The notes below the pieces were generated by a model. The model had not been told where the DNA came from. It worked only from the letters and a program-made list of their open reading frames with translations, and ran no database searches. A stretch of DNA of 64,000 nt from Herminiimonas arsenicoxydans (GTDB lineage Bacteria > Pseudomonadota > Gammaproteobacteria > Burkholderiales > Burkholderiaceae_D): the NCBI GenBank assembly GCA_000026125.1, contig CU207211.1, forward strand, positions 62,001 to 126,000. The letters run 5' to 3'. A program made the translations under genes and the position numbers. Below are positions 3,895 through 6,261 of this stretch, piece after piece. Numbering within the stretch: position 1 is the first letter of the stretch; each line of letters opens with the position of its first letter.

Positions 3895-4467
3895 ATGACG
3901 CTTGCTCGCTGCAGCTGGGCCAATCCAGCCAATCCGCTGTATCTCAAATATCACGATGAAGAATGGGGCGTACCCTGCCACGATGAAACGCGCCTGTTTG
4001 AGATGCTAAATCTGGAAGGCGCGCAGGCCGGTCTTAGCTGGTCGACCATACTCAACAAGCGTGAAAACTATCGCGTCGCCTTCGATCAGTGGGATGCCAG
4101 AAAGATCGCTGCTTATGACGCGGACAAAGTAGCCGCGTTGCTGGCCAACCCCGGCATCGTACGCAATCGCCTGAAAGTGGCGGCCACGATCAACAATGCC
4201 CGGGCTTATCTGCGCTTGTGCGAAGACATCGGCAGTCTGGATGCATTTTTATGGGCTTATGTGGATGGCGAGCCGATTTTGAATGCGCGTGCGAGTATCA
4301 ATGAAACGCCGGCCACGACGCCTCTGTCGGATCAGCTGTCCAAGGATCTGGCCAGGCGCGGCTTCAAGTTTGTCGGCTCGACGATCATCTACGCTTATAT
4401 GCAGGCGATAGGGATGGTGAATGATCATGCGCAGGACTGCTTCTGTTATCAGGCACCCAGAATATAG
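3895..4467 (+). CDS. tag: DNA-3-methyladenine glycosylase I
   Basis: Constitutive base-excision repair glycosylase that removes 3-methyladenine. It has 190 residues. Family motifs are present in order: RCSWAN...YHDEEWG at the N-terminus (zinc-ligand Cys and catalytic Glu), FEMLNLEGAQAGLSW, GIVRNRLK, and FVGSTIIYAYMQAIGMVNDH with C-terminal His/Cys ligands. Length fits the Tag family. A GGAATC element lies about 10 bases upstream of the ATG. The sRNA locus begins about 30 bases downstream. Confidence 0.95.
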   Translation: MTLARCSWANPANPLYLKYHDEEWGVPCHDETRLFEMLNLEGAQAGLSWSTILNKRENYRVAFDQWDARKIAAYDADKVAALLANPGIVRNRLKVAATINNARAYLRLCEDIGSLDAFLWAYVDGEPILNARASINETPATTPLSDQLSKDLARRGFKFVGSTIIYAYMQAIGMVNDHAQDCFCYQAPRI

Positions 4468-4497: not shown

Positions 4498-4561
4498 AAA
4501 AAAAAAGCCCGCACAAGAAGGCGGGCTAAATCTATATCAAAGGAGGAGACATAGAGGAGAC
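4498..4561 (-). ncRNA. Candidate small RNA A (tandem sibling, anti-Shine-Dalgarno type)
   Basis: Read on the minus strand, a transcript of about 64 nt is predicted. It carries two copies of TGTCTCCTC separated by TA, then TTTGATATAGATT, then a hairpin (AGCCCGC / GCGGGCT) followed by nine T. The C/U-rich 5' half is complementary to strong ribosome-binding sites. A promoter (-10 TATACT at 4568-4573, -35 TTGGCT at 4592-4597, 18-base spacer) and an operator-like palindrome at 4610-4620 lie upstream. The plus strand has no U-tract after the hairpin, which fixes the orientation. The element is repeated at a period of exactly 220 bases. I do not recognise a named family. Confidence 0.7.
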
Positions 4562-4567
4562 AGGTGA

Positions 4568-4620
4568 AGTATAGGGCGCTGACTTTGGCAAAGCCAATTC
4601 TCATTTCTGATATCGGATAT
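4568..4620 (-). promoter_or_regulatory. Promoter and operator of sRNA A
   Basis: On the minus strand: ATATCCGATAT (4610-4620, a perfect inverted repeat around one base), 12 bases, TTGGCT (-35, 4592-4597), 18 bases, TATACT (-10, 4568-4573). The same arrangement and spacings occur in copy B, although the 18-base spacer shares little sequence with it. This points to selection on the elements. Confidence 0.6.
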
Positions 4621-4718
4621 TCGATTTGTGAATATCACATTGGAAATATACGTCAGGGTCTTATGACTTGTTGTTGCGCACCGACATGCGTAACATTACG
4701 CCTCCGGATAGCGCAGGC

Positions 4719-4781
4719 AAAAAAAAGCCCGCACAAGAAGGCGGGCTGAATCTATATCAAAGGAGGAGACATAGAGGAGAC
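4719..4781 (-). ncRNA. Candidate small RNA B (tandem sibling of sRNA A)
   Basis: The minus-strand transcript of about 63 nt is almost identical to sRNA A: a doubled TGTCTCCTC, then TTTGATATAGATT, then an AGCCCGC/GCGGGCT hairpin with eight T. Its -10 is a perfect TATAAT (4788-4793) and its -35 is TTGGTG (4812-4817), again with an 18-base spacer. It differs from copy A in single bases, for example at the base before the hairpin. Transcription runs leftward, away from sugE and toward sRNA A and tag. Confidence 0.7.
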
Positions 4782-4787
4782 AAGTGA

Positions 4788-4840
4788 ATTATAGGGATTC
4801 TTGTCGCGGCGCACCAATTTCCTTTTCTGATATCAGATAT
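4788..4840 (-). promoter_or_regulatory. Promoter and operator of sRNA B
   Basis: On the minus strand: ATATCTGATAT (4830-4840, inverted repeat), 12 bases, TTGGTG (-35), 18 bases, TATAAT (-10, 4788-4793). Spacing is identical to copy A. A dimeric regulator binding about 15 bases upstream of -35 would fit an activator site, but no binding protein can be named. Confidence 0.6.
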
Positions 4841-4854
4841 TTGAAATATGAATA

Positions 4855-4874
4855 TGCCGTCTTGCAAGACGGCA
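4855..4874. repeat. Perfect 20-bp palindrome between sRNA B and the sugE leader
   Basis: TGCCGTCTTG at 4855-4864 is followed immediately by its reverse complement at 4865-4874. It could form a hairpin with a TGCA loop. No U-tract follows on either strand, so an operator or a boundary element is as likely as a terminator. Confidence 0.7.
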
Positions 4875-5074: not shown

Positions 5075-5395
5075 ATGCCCTGGCTTATTCTTGTAATTGC
5101 CGGCCTGTTTGAAATAGGCTGGGCCATCGGACTCAAATACACGGACGGTTTTACGCGTTTGTGGCCGACGGTCGGTACGCTGGGCGCGATGCTGATCAGC
5201 GTCGTGTTGCTGGGTTTGGCAATGAAATCGCTGCCGGTGGGAACTGCCTATGCAGTCTGGACTGGTATAGGCACCGTTGGCACCGTCATCCTGGGGATGG
5301 TGTTGCTGGGTGAGGCGGCTTCCGCGGTGCGCGTGGTCTGCATAATGCTGATCGTGGCCGGGATAATCGGATTGAAGGTTTTCAGCCCGACTTGA
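5075..5395 (+). CDS. sugE: Guanidinium exporter SugE/Gdx (SMR family)
   Basis: Inner-membrane small multidrug resistance protein of 106 residues with four transmembrane helices. It exports guanidinium in exchange for protons as an antiparallel dimer. The conserved Glu lies in [12 protein letters not shown] (helix 1), and [19 protein letters not shown] in helix 3 is characteristic of the Gdx subtype. The ATG at 5075 follows GGAG with a 9-base spacer, right after the guanidine-II riboswitch. The longer ORF upstream is untranslated leader. Regulation by guanidine is well supported by this context. Confidence 0.95.
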
Positions 5396-5435: not shown

Positions 5436-5966
5436 TCAATCCTTCTGGTCTTTCTTTTTGCCTGGCTTTTTTGCTGACTTTCTAACTTTTGGCGCCAGCA
5501 TCGTGTGCCGGCAGCTTGCCGCGCCGCAACGGCATTCGTAGGCCTTTTTCAAGGCCTTGGTCTGACGCTCGTCGACCACCAGGCCGTAATCGTAATTGAA
5601 TTCCTCGCCGCGTTTGATATCGCGCAGAGTGTAAATATAGACGCGTTTTTTTTCTTCGCGCGCTTCGCAGTTCGGTTCGCATGCGTGATTGATCCAGCGT
5701 GCATCGCTGCCATCGACACCGCCATCGATCATCTTGCCGCTTTCGAGGCTGAAAAAGAAGGTGTGATACGGATTTTCCGGATCGCTGCCGTGACGCTTGG
5801 CTGCCTCTTTGTCGCTGATGCGTTCGCCTTCGTATTCGATCAGCAGCGTGTCGGCCGGAATGTTGCGCGTGGCAAAAACGCCGCGGCCGTGTATCGGTGA
5901 ATTTCTGACGATGAATGCAGGTTTGTCTGACGCGGCTACGGTTTTGCTCTTGCTCGATGAGGTCAT
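5436..5966 (-). CDS. SET domain-containing protein
   Basis: Probable protein-lysine methyltransferase of 176 residues. The SET core includes FIVRNSPIHGRGVFA, a central YEGERI, the SAM-binding/catalytic RWINHACEPNCEA, and EEFNYDYG with the catalytic Tyr. A post-SET cysteine cluster (ECRCGAASC) completes the fold, and a Lys-rich tail ends the protein. The target in bacteria is unknown. The ATG at 5966 starts just before the domain; alternative ATGs at 6023 and 6041 lack a clear ribosome-binding site too, so the start is uncertain. Confidence 0.85.
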   Translation of the reverse strand: MTSSSKSKTVAASDKPAFIVRNSPIHGRGVFATRNIPADTLLIEYEGERISDKEAAKRHGSDPENPYHTFFFSLESGKMIDGGVDGSDARWINHACEPNCEAREEKKRVYIYTLRDIKRGEEFNYDYGLVVDERQTKALKKAYECRCGAASCRHTMLAPKVRKSAKKPGKKKDQKD

Positions 5967-6261
5967 GTTCAGTTCAGTGACAAAAGAATGCGTGTTTTCA
6001 GGAGGTCTGGGGCCGACAGCCATGCACAAGAAGCATTCCACCTGCCGGCGCGCTATTGTCTATCAATACCGGCGCAAGGACAATTGCCTGACGACGTTTA
6101 TCGACGCAGCCCGCAGCCGCGAGCATATTGGCGGCAAAATCACCGGCGGGAAATAAAAATGCATGCAAGCCGGGTGTGCCGACTTGCATGCATCGAGTAG
6201 CGATTGCGCCGATCAGGCGCGCCGTTACCTGTTCTCCCTGATTCGCCGTGCGGTTTTCTGC

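Follow-up and report, generated by a model that had tools for sequence, protein, structure and literature searches.

A tandem pair of RF02278 small RNA genes in Herminiimonas arsenicoxydans and its probable link to a LysR-type regulator

The tandem sRNA locus

The window analysed here, a 64-kb stretch of the single-contig, 3,424,307-base genome of Herminiimonas arsenicoxydans, carries two small RNA (sRNA) genes in tandem on its minus strand, with a methyladenine DNA glycosylase gene (tag) on one side and a small multidrug resistance gene on the other (Table 1; positions are those of the window unless the genome is named). Copy 1 consists of an unpaired 5' UGUCUCCUC, a first hairpin whose loop holds another C/U box, and a terminator hairpin; copy 2 has the same anatomy, and TGTCTCCTC occurs twice in each of the two transcripts. 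An earlier, sequence-only reading of this DNA had placed a palindrome, a −35, an 18-base spacer, a −10, a C/U-rich transcript of about 64 nt and a terminator twice on the minus strand, with the copies 220 bases apart, and reading both strands confirmed these elements, the transcript lengths, the 18-base spacing in both copies and the start-to-start distance of 220 bases. The generic promoter scan was unremarkable (2 sites against 2.1 expected, copy 1 being the sole one of the pair listed), so the case for these promoters is built on conservation and not on consensus matching. The riboswitch and the small multidrug resistance gene form an ordinary guanidine-exporter arrangement adjoining the sRNA pair, and the ORF at 5436–6041 on the minus strand looks SET-domain-like by eye. 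Weak overlaps with other Rfam families (suhB/mmgR, GcvB, anti-hemB, Trp leader) fell under their own gathering scores and were dropped.

Table 1. Features of the tandem sRNA locus and the associated regulator gene
Feature	Position	Strand	Evidence
Methyladenine DNA glycosylase gene (tag), conserved neighbour	3895–4467	plus	Pfam PF03352; in 15/16 loci tested
sRNA copy 1, RF02278	4499–4562	minus	Rfam 67.5 bits; fold z −6.8; family covariation
Terminator hairpin, copy 1, then 9 T	4506–4527	minus	scan and sequence
−10 TATACT, copy 1	4568–4573	minus	promoter scan
−35 TTGGCT, copy 1; TTGG is the end of the conserved upstream block	4592–4597	minus	promoter scan, column conservation
Candidate operator block, copy 1: GATATTCAC box (4628–4636), ATATC-C-GATAT (4610–4620), A-rich stretch, AATTGG	4594–4636	minus	motif discovery, columns, genome pattern search
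Palindrome ATATCCGATAT, copy 1	4610–4620	minus	sequence
sRNA copy 2, RF02278, anatomy as copy 1	4719–4782	minus	Rfam 68.1 bits; fold z −5.9
Terminator hairpin, copy 2, then 8 T	4726–4747	minus	scan and sequence
−10 TATAAT, copy 2	4788–4793	minus	sequence
−35 TTGGTG, copy 2	4812–4817	minus	sequence, column conservation
Candidate operator block, copy 2: GCATATTCA box (4849–4857), ATATC-T-GATAT (4830–4840), AAAAGGAAATTGG	4814–4857	minus	motif discovery, columns, genome pattern search
Palindrome ATATCTGATAT, copy 2	4830–4840	minus	sequence
Guanidine-II riboswitch RF01068	5008–5054	plus	Rfam 44.4 bits; before small multidrug resistance gene
Small multidrug resistance gene	5075–5395	plus	Pfam PF00893; in 9/13 same-genus loci
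LysR-type regulator gene	genome 3378095–3379051 (outside the window)		Pfam PF00126 and PF03466

Rfam assigns both copies to RF02278 (Betaproteobacteria toxic sRNA, or double-hairpin RNA), with full-length matches (1–64 of 64) that lie above the gathering cut-off of 50 bits and have an E value of about 1e-11 over the whole window. These covariance-model matches bear out the call of sRNA genes, and the pair almost certainly belongs to RF02278; the sequence-only reading did not recognise it as a named family, but the family is in Rfam and several of its members have published work. The folding energies of the two RNAs (−21.5 and −21.6 kcal/mol) both lie below those of all 200 shuffles. Across 28 diverse family sequences chosen from 89 selected copies, 96.3% of cells of the two-hairpin structure (12 pairs) were paired, 46 cells showed double-sided changes and 8 pairs had double changes, while 0/500 shuffles reached either the paired fraction or the double-change count, and sliding the partners abolished the signal. 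As expected of an RF02278 member, the RNA thus has two hairpins supported by covariation, the second of which is the terminator. The 5' GTCTCC box was found in 22/22 further Rfam-listed copies, each read by coordinate, whereas the second C/U box is looser (CTCC in 73/89 selected copies, CTCCTC in 49/89), which makes the 5' single strand the more conserved part. Besides the pair, the genome holds RF02278 matches at genome positions 1042541 (copy 3, 53 bits) and 3379947 (copy 4, 39 bits, under the cut-off), four in all.

Relatives of these sRNAs have been studied in several bacteria. Burkholderia cenocepacia encodes four homologous double-hairpin RNAs, ncS03, ncS05, ncS27 and ncS62, which are higher in growth arrest and low amino acids and three of which share an unnamed upstream motif that may or may not relate to the operator block described below (PMC5688073). 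They resemble the pair in matching the model end to end, in their C/U boxes and in being multicopy; however, they are reported as "not in tandem" (PMC5688073), whereas the Herminiimonas copies are tandem, with an operator in common with a LysR gene. A review assigns NcS27 a role in metabolic shutdown upon nutrient loss (PMC10987360), and Herbaspirillum seropedicae has four family copies (PMC7011215). The likeness to Neisseria tandem siblings that the sequence-only reading proposed is real and had already been drawn in print for RF02278 RNAs (PMC5688073). Neisseria NmsRA and NmsRB are tandem and carry two anti-Shine-Dalgarno (anti-SD) motifs, with metabolic targets that include prpC (PMC5362039), and the pair similarly stands in tandem, its two RNAs being almost identical and their C/U boxes open to pairing with ribosome-binding sites (RBSs). 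The two Neisseria RNAs are, nonetheless, about 70% identical to each other and RelA-controlled, and the passages of PMC5362039 available give no LysR link.

Age and maintenance of the tandem arrangement

The pair is present in 13/13 same-genus genomes searched, with its copies 206–228 bases apart, and tag adjoins it in all 13, as it does the single copy in 2/3 other-genus loci tested. The first 34 nt are alike in 25/26 same-genus copies and the spacers share merely 0.35–0.47 identity; with spacers so diverged and the pair kept throughout the genus, the duplication is old and not recent, as had been proposed, and the simplest history is a single duplication at the base of the genus. The earlier reading had further held that homologous loci keeping the repeats while losing the promoter and terminator would speak against it. 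Such loci are absent within the genus, where 26/26 copies from 13 genomes keep the −10, a run of at least 7 T and the operator block (≤3 mismatches).

Spacer identity is higher within a genome (0.44) than cross-copy between genomes (0.35), which hints at occasional gene conversion. We give roughly even chances to the copies being plain dosage duplicates, without separate roles and kept alike by gene conversion, given that the first 34 nt are so uniform and that the spacer identities suggest some conversion, while the spacers nevertheless stay diverged within genomes. Such an explanation is compatible with the regulatory reading developed below and is no alternative to it.

A promoter block in common with a LysR-type regulator gene

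From 97 loci, 79 non-redundant sRNA upstreams were taken for motif discovery, which placed a block of about 45 bp at −58/−59 upstream of 54/79 copies. Column conservation, taken from 52 of these 54 copies (the upstream sequence of the other two does not reach far enough), gives the consensus GnTATTCa-N8-ATAtCnGrTATcanAAAnntAAATTGG, in which the TATTC box starts 14 bases before ATAtCnGrTAT and the AAATTGG end coincides with the −35. The same upstreams trained the matrix used below; the copies were picked, among the matches listed, by TGTCTCCTC/TGTCTCCTT plus a T-run, so the 5' box is biased. The other 25/79 copies, including copies 3 and 4 of the host genome and many family copies beyond the genus, lack the block at that position, and reading by coordinate found it in 10/22 further copies, one of which repeats a copy already counted. 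The shared operator of the sequence-only reading is thus common to both copies of the pair, but it is longer than the palindrome noted, which is kept exactly in just 15/26 same-genus copies. Exact ATATCNGATAT occurs at four sites in the 3.42-Mb genome, two of them at the sRNA pair and the other two not promoter-placed by eye; the exact palindrome was accordingly rejected as the operator, and the longer block worked.

With up to three mismatches, the block pattern has five matches in the host genome, against 0 for the reversed control: two at the pair, one at genome 3379108, one at genome 3416888, and an other-strand overlap with the operator of copy 2. The match at 3379108 sits between the LysR-type regulator gene and a divergent small ORF, with TTGG and TATACT spaced as in the pair, and sRNA copy 4 lies 0.8 kb downstream of this promoter on the same strand. 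The match at 3416888 precedes a 42-aa ORF with the promoter TTGGAT-18-TACACT (G000:C1:3416888; L101 1500–1730). This ORF is without a Pfam match, recurs in the same arrangement in a second genome (G003, L296) and is a possible further regulon member. A third class of pattern matches, ATATCATATTCCTGAAATGCGAATTGG, in G002, G005 and G011 (similar in G012), lies by eye inside coding sequence and was taken as chance. The third sRNA copy of the genus (L003, L044–L051) has another conserved upstream, GACTATGCAAATAATTAATTGGT or near it in several loci, with the matrix optimum shifted to −64/−65, and the gene that follows it in L003 is Crp/Fnr-like by eye.

The link between block and regulator gene extends well beyond the host genome. 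Among same-genus genomes, the pattern (≤3 mismatches) also lies between regulator and divergent ORF in 11/13, and the sRNA-trained matrix, scored at its best place anywhere in the locus, finds the block at the regulator orthologue in 13/13 (24.4–33.7 bits). The best 80 of 402 regulator relatives in named records (74–98% identity) span Herminiimonas, Oxalicibacterium, Noviherbaspirillum, Collimonas, Herbaspirillum, Undibacterium, Massilia, Janthinobacterium, Rugamonas, a Duganella bin and further bins. In these best 80 of 402, the only set for which scoring was restricted to 450 nt upstream of the regulator, the matrix exceeded 20 on the divergent strand in 78/80 loci (the misses being L249 with 12.0 and L252 with 7.8) and on the opposite strand in 0/80. 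Scored at the best place anywhere in the locus, the background reached a maximum of 11.0 in 107,484 positions of other host-genome loci, non-orthologous LysR loci (L171–L178, L204–L213) gave at most 15.0, and 25/30 further orthologue loci exceeded 20 (L320, one of the 30, has almost no upstream sequence). In the same best 80 of 402 loci, 39/80 have an RF02278-like sRNA on the divergent strand at no more than 1.6 kb (25/80 with a stricter pattern), compared with 3/80 in which one lies on the opposite strand or to the other side of the regulator gene. The site therefore stands, as in a LysR regulon, both in the regulator's own divergent promoter and before the sRNAs.

In several genera, the small ORFs divergent from the LysR gene (L149–L203, L214–L293) have a C-terminal LNRMA...QPNLAAELR in common; their N-terminus is often hydrophobic, and the four tested have no Pfam family. 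The motif is repeated in the Herminiimonas ORFs. In two Herbaspirillum loci (L260, L269) the cassette seems doubled, the operator promoter being followed by ORF, sRNA, second like ORF and second sRNA.

The solved structure nearest to the regulator is the LysR-type protein 1uth (169 bits), which we take to be DntR. The nearest NCBIfam models are BsrA (NF050187), whose equivalog the protein does not join at 213 bits against a cut-off of 480, and LeuO (162 bits against 262), from which we infer, by sequence comparison, a LysR protein of the DntR/LeuO/BsrA neighbourhood. To our knowledge, no cognate sRNA belongs to the definition of DntR/NahR, BsrA or LeuO-type regulators. The outer dyad of copy 1, TATTC-N7-GAATA, is centred near −65, presumably the usual position for LysR sites, and its T-N11-A spacing would, as we understand such sites, fit a LysR recognition site. 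The ATTCAC half-site seems to us to resemble the NahR box, a resemblance on which a literature check found nothing.

A probable LysR-controlled sRNA regulon

Regulator and sRNAs also track each other across genomes. In a table of 116 of the 123 family genomes (seven were left out), with the regulator called at 64% identity or more, the 93 genomes with a regulator have a median of 6 sRNA matches and at least two in 90/93, whereas the 23 without have a median of 1 and at least two in 4/23; the comparison is descriptive and its P value too strong, because the counts share ancestry, and several of the regulator-less genomes are small. The four exceptions without a regulator match are G072 (6 sRNA matches) and G081 (4), both drafts with the regulator present in same-genus genomes, and G069 and G108 (2 each). 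Exceptions with a regulator are G134 (0 matches), G073 (1) and G137 (1): the best matrix scores anywhere in the G134 and G073 regulator loci, 14.5 and 6.7, fit a joint loss of block and sRNAs, while the G137 locus, in a draft assembly, scores 33.8 with its one match and is a misfit. Among the copies read from regulator-less genomes, where the best homologue reaches at most 56%, 0/11 have the block, and the two Burkholderiaceae plasmid copies read, out of six, are likewise without it. S17-type copies, named after the Bordetella pertussis RNA, lack the block also in genomes that have the regulator, and in this respect those read in relatives are unlike the pair.

Two distributional observations stand apart. 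RF02278-like matches on conjugative plasmids (Burkholderia vietnamiensis G4 pBVIE01, L301; Caballeronia grimmiae p2, L300) each lie beside a HAD-IB hydrolase gene. One region (L038, G017:C113:124000-143000) holds at least six RF02278 copies in 16 kb, those read having a variant operator; a repeated gene cassette was considered for this array and rejected, as the intervening genes look unrelated by eye.

Since the operator block also stands in the divergent promoter of the regulator itself, the pair can be read as two outputs of a LysR regulon, and we regard it as likely that these are two independently transcribed members of a multicopy sRNA regulon that the LysR protein controls in Oxalobacteraceae. 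One LysR-type regulator would bind the block of about 45 bp before each promoter and drive transcription, each sRNA being transcribed independently of the other. Regulation of the pair by the LysR protein is probably direct, and the position of the dyad near −65 leads us to guess at activation rather than repression.

It is unlikely that a factor other than the LysR protein binds the block upstream of otherwise ordinary RF02278 sRNAs and that the LysR gene is just one more of its targets. The same block does precede the 42-aa ORF, which is unlinked to the regulator, and block and regulator are thus not universally linked. Against this explanation, the block recurs in the regulator's divergent promoter in nearly all of the best 80 of 402 orthologue loci, the dyad of copy 1 lies at a position typical of LysR sites, and regulator presence tracks sRNA copy number across the 116 genomes.

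A second explanation, which we consider improbable, treats the block as strong promoter context only (an A-rich, UP-like stretch with an extended −10 CCTATACTTCA of sigma-S type), with expression following growth phase and no dedicated regulator. In our estimation the A-rich stretch does resemble an UP element and CCTATACTTCA a sigma-S type −10, and both the A-rich stretch and AATTGG adjoin the −35. Relatives also accumulate at growth arrest (PMC5688073); however, an UP element leaves the two-sided ATAtCnGrTAT and the TATTC box unexplained, as it does the near restriction of the block to regulator-bearing genomes. The Rfam name could be taken to point to a toxin within a toxin-antitoxin module, which the toxicity of RF02278 members on cloning in E. 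coli (PMC4603805, citing Kimelman 2012) would allow. Such a role of the RNAs is very improbable and was set aside, since no antitoxin was recognised among ORFs of at least 80 aa around the pair, where there is also no other Rfam sRNA, and since the copies are dispersed and multicopy and B. pertussis S17S hardly affects growth (PMC11722255).

Returning to control by the LysR protein, we hold it to be fairly likely that Oxalobacteraceae have put an old betaproteobacterial anti-SD sRNA family under a dedicated LysR regulator, enlarged the family to up to 21 matches in a genome, and assembled a cassette in which the regulator gene stands together with an sRNA and the divergent small LNRMA...QPNLAAELR protein. 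The pair would represent the Herminiimonas/Oxalicibacterium branch, and a sensed metabolite would switch broad repression of nutrient uptake. The sRNAs are known as a family, and what appears new is the operator block in common with the LysR gene; the searchable literature yielded neither the tandem form of RF02278 nor a LysR-linked operator regulon. If true, the regulon would offer a clear example of a multicopy sRNA family driven by a single transcription factor. The regulator of sRNA accumulation in B. cenocepacia was stated as unknown by Sass et al. 2017 (PMC5688073). Members of the family hold back growth and the use of nutrients. With one candidate regulator and a precisely delimited block, the question of what controls their accumulation can be tested directly in an environmental bacterium that is harmless.

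Predicted pairing with ribosome-binding sites

The unpaired 5' UGUCUCCUC and the C/U box in the loop would pair with GAGGAGACA-like RBSs, and covering of the RBS, which has been shown to act in relatives, would here block translation of mRNAs for transport and carbon metabolism. In B. pertussis, Sites 1 and 2 of S17 can pair with RBSs, and compensatory mutations establish direct repression of BP2158 via RBS pairing (PMC11722255). S17 and S17S share with the pair a 5' C/U Site 1 and a loop Site 2, but S17S is an RNase E cut from a 190-nt transcript, whereas for each member of the pair a separate promoter is predicted directly at the 5' end of the mature RNA (PMC11722255 for S17S). Growth inhibition by S17S is not reported for exponential phase in the available passages of that paper. 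The anti-SD motif of the sequence-only reading was therefore right, RBS pairing being published for the family, and the C/U boxes of the pair probably act in this way.

For relatives such as B. pertussis S17 (PMC11722255), there are good grounds for the further suggestion of paired repressors of many mRNAs, although the exact 8-mer shows no clear genome-wide enrichment here over neighbouring 8-mers, and targets in the host thus stay predicted. AGGAGACA lies 3–12 bases before ATG at 19 places in the genome, two of which are the sRNA genes themselves, against 2 for the reversed control. Within a wider AGGAGANA set of 87 matches, AGGAGAAA accounts for 43, AGGAGAGA for 13 and AGGAGATA for 12, compared with 17 for AGGAGACA without the sRNA genes, so these 17 sites are no evidence of selection.

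At 13 of the 17 sites the ATG starts a reading frame of at least 64 aa, and Pfam names 12 of the predicted targets: OmpW, a nitric oxide reductase, two TctC receptors, a DctP receptor, an MFS transporter, a branched-chain permease, a universal stress protein, TerC, DUF485, a transketolase-fold enzyme (AceE-like by eye) and a citrate-synthase-fold enzyme. This set resembles the transport and metabolism lists in the available passages published on S17 and the double-hairpin RNAs.
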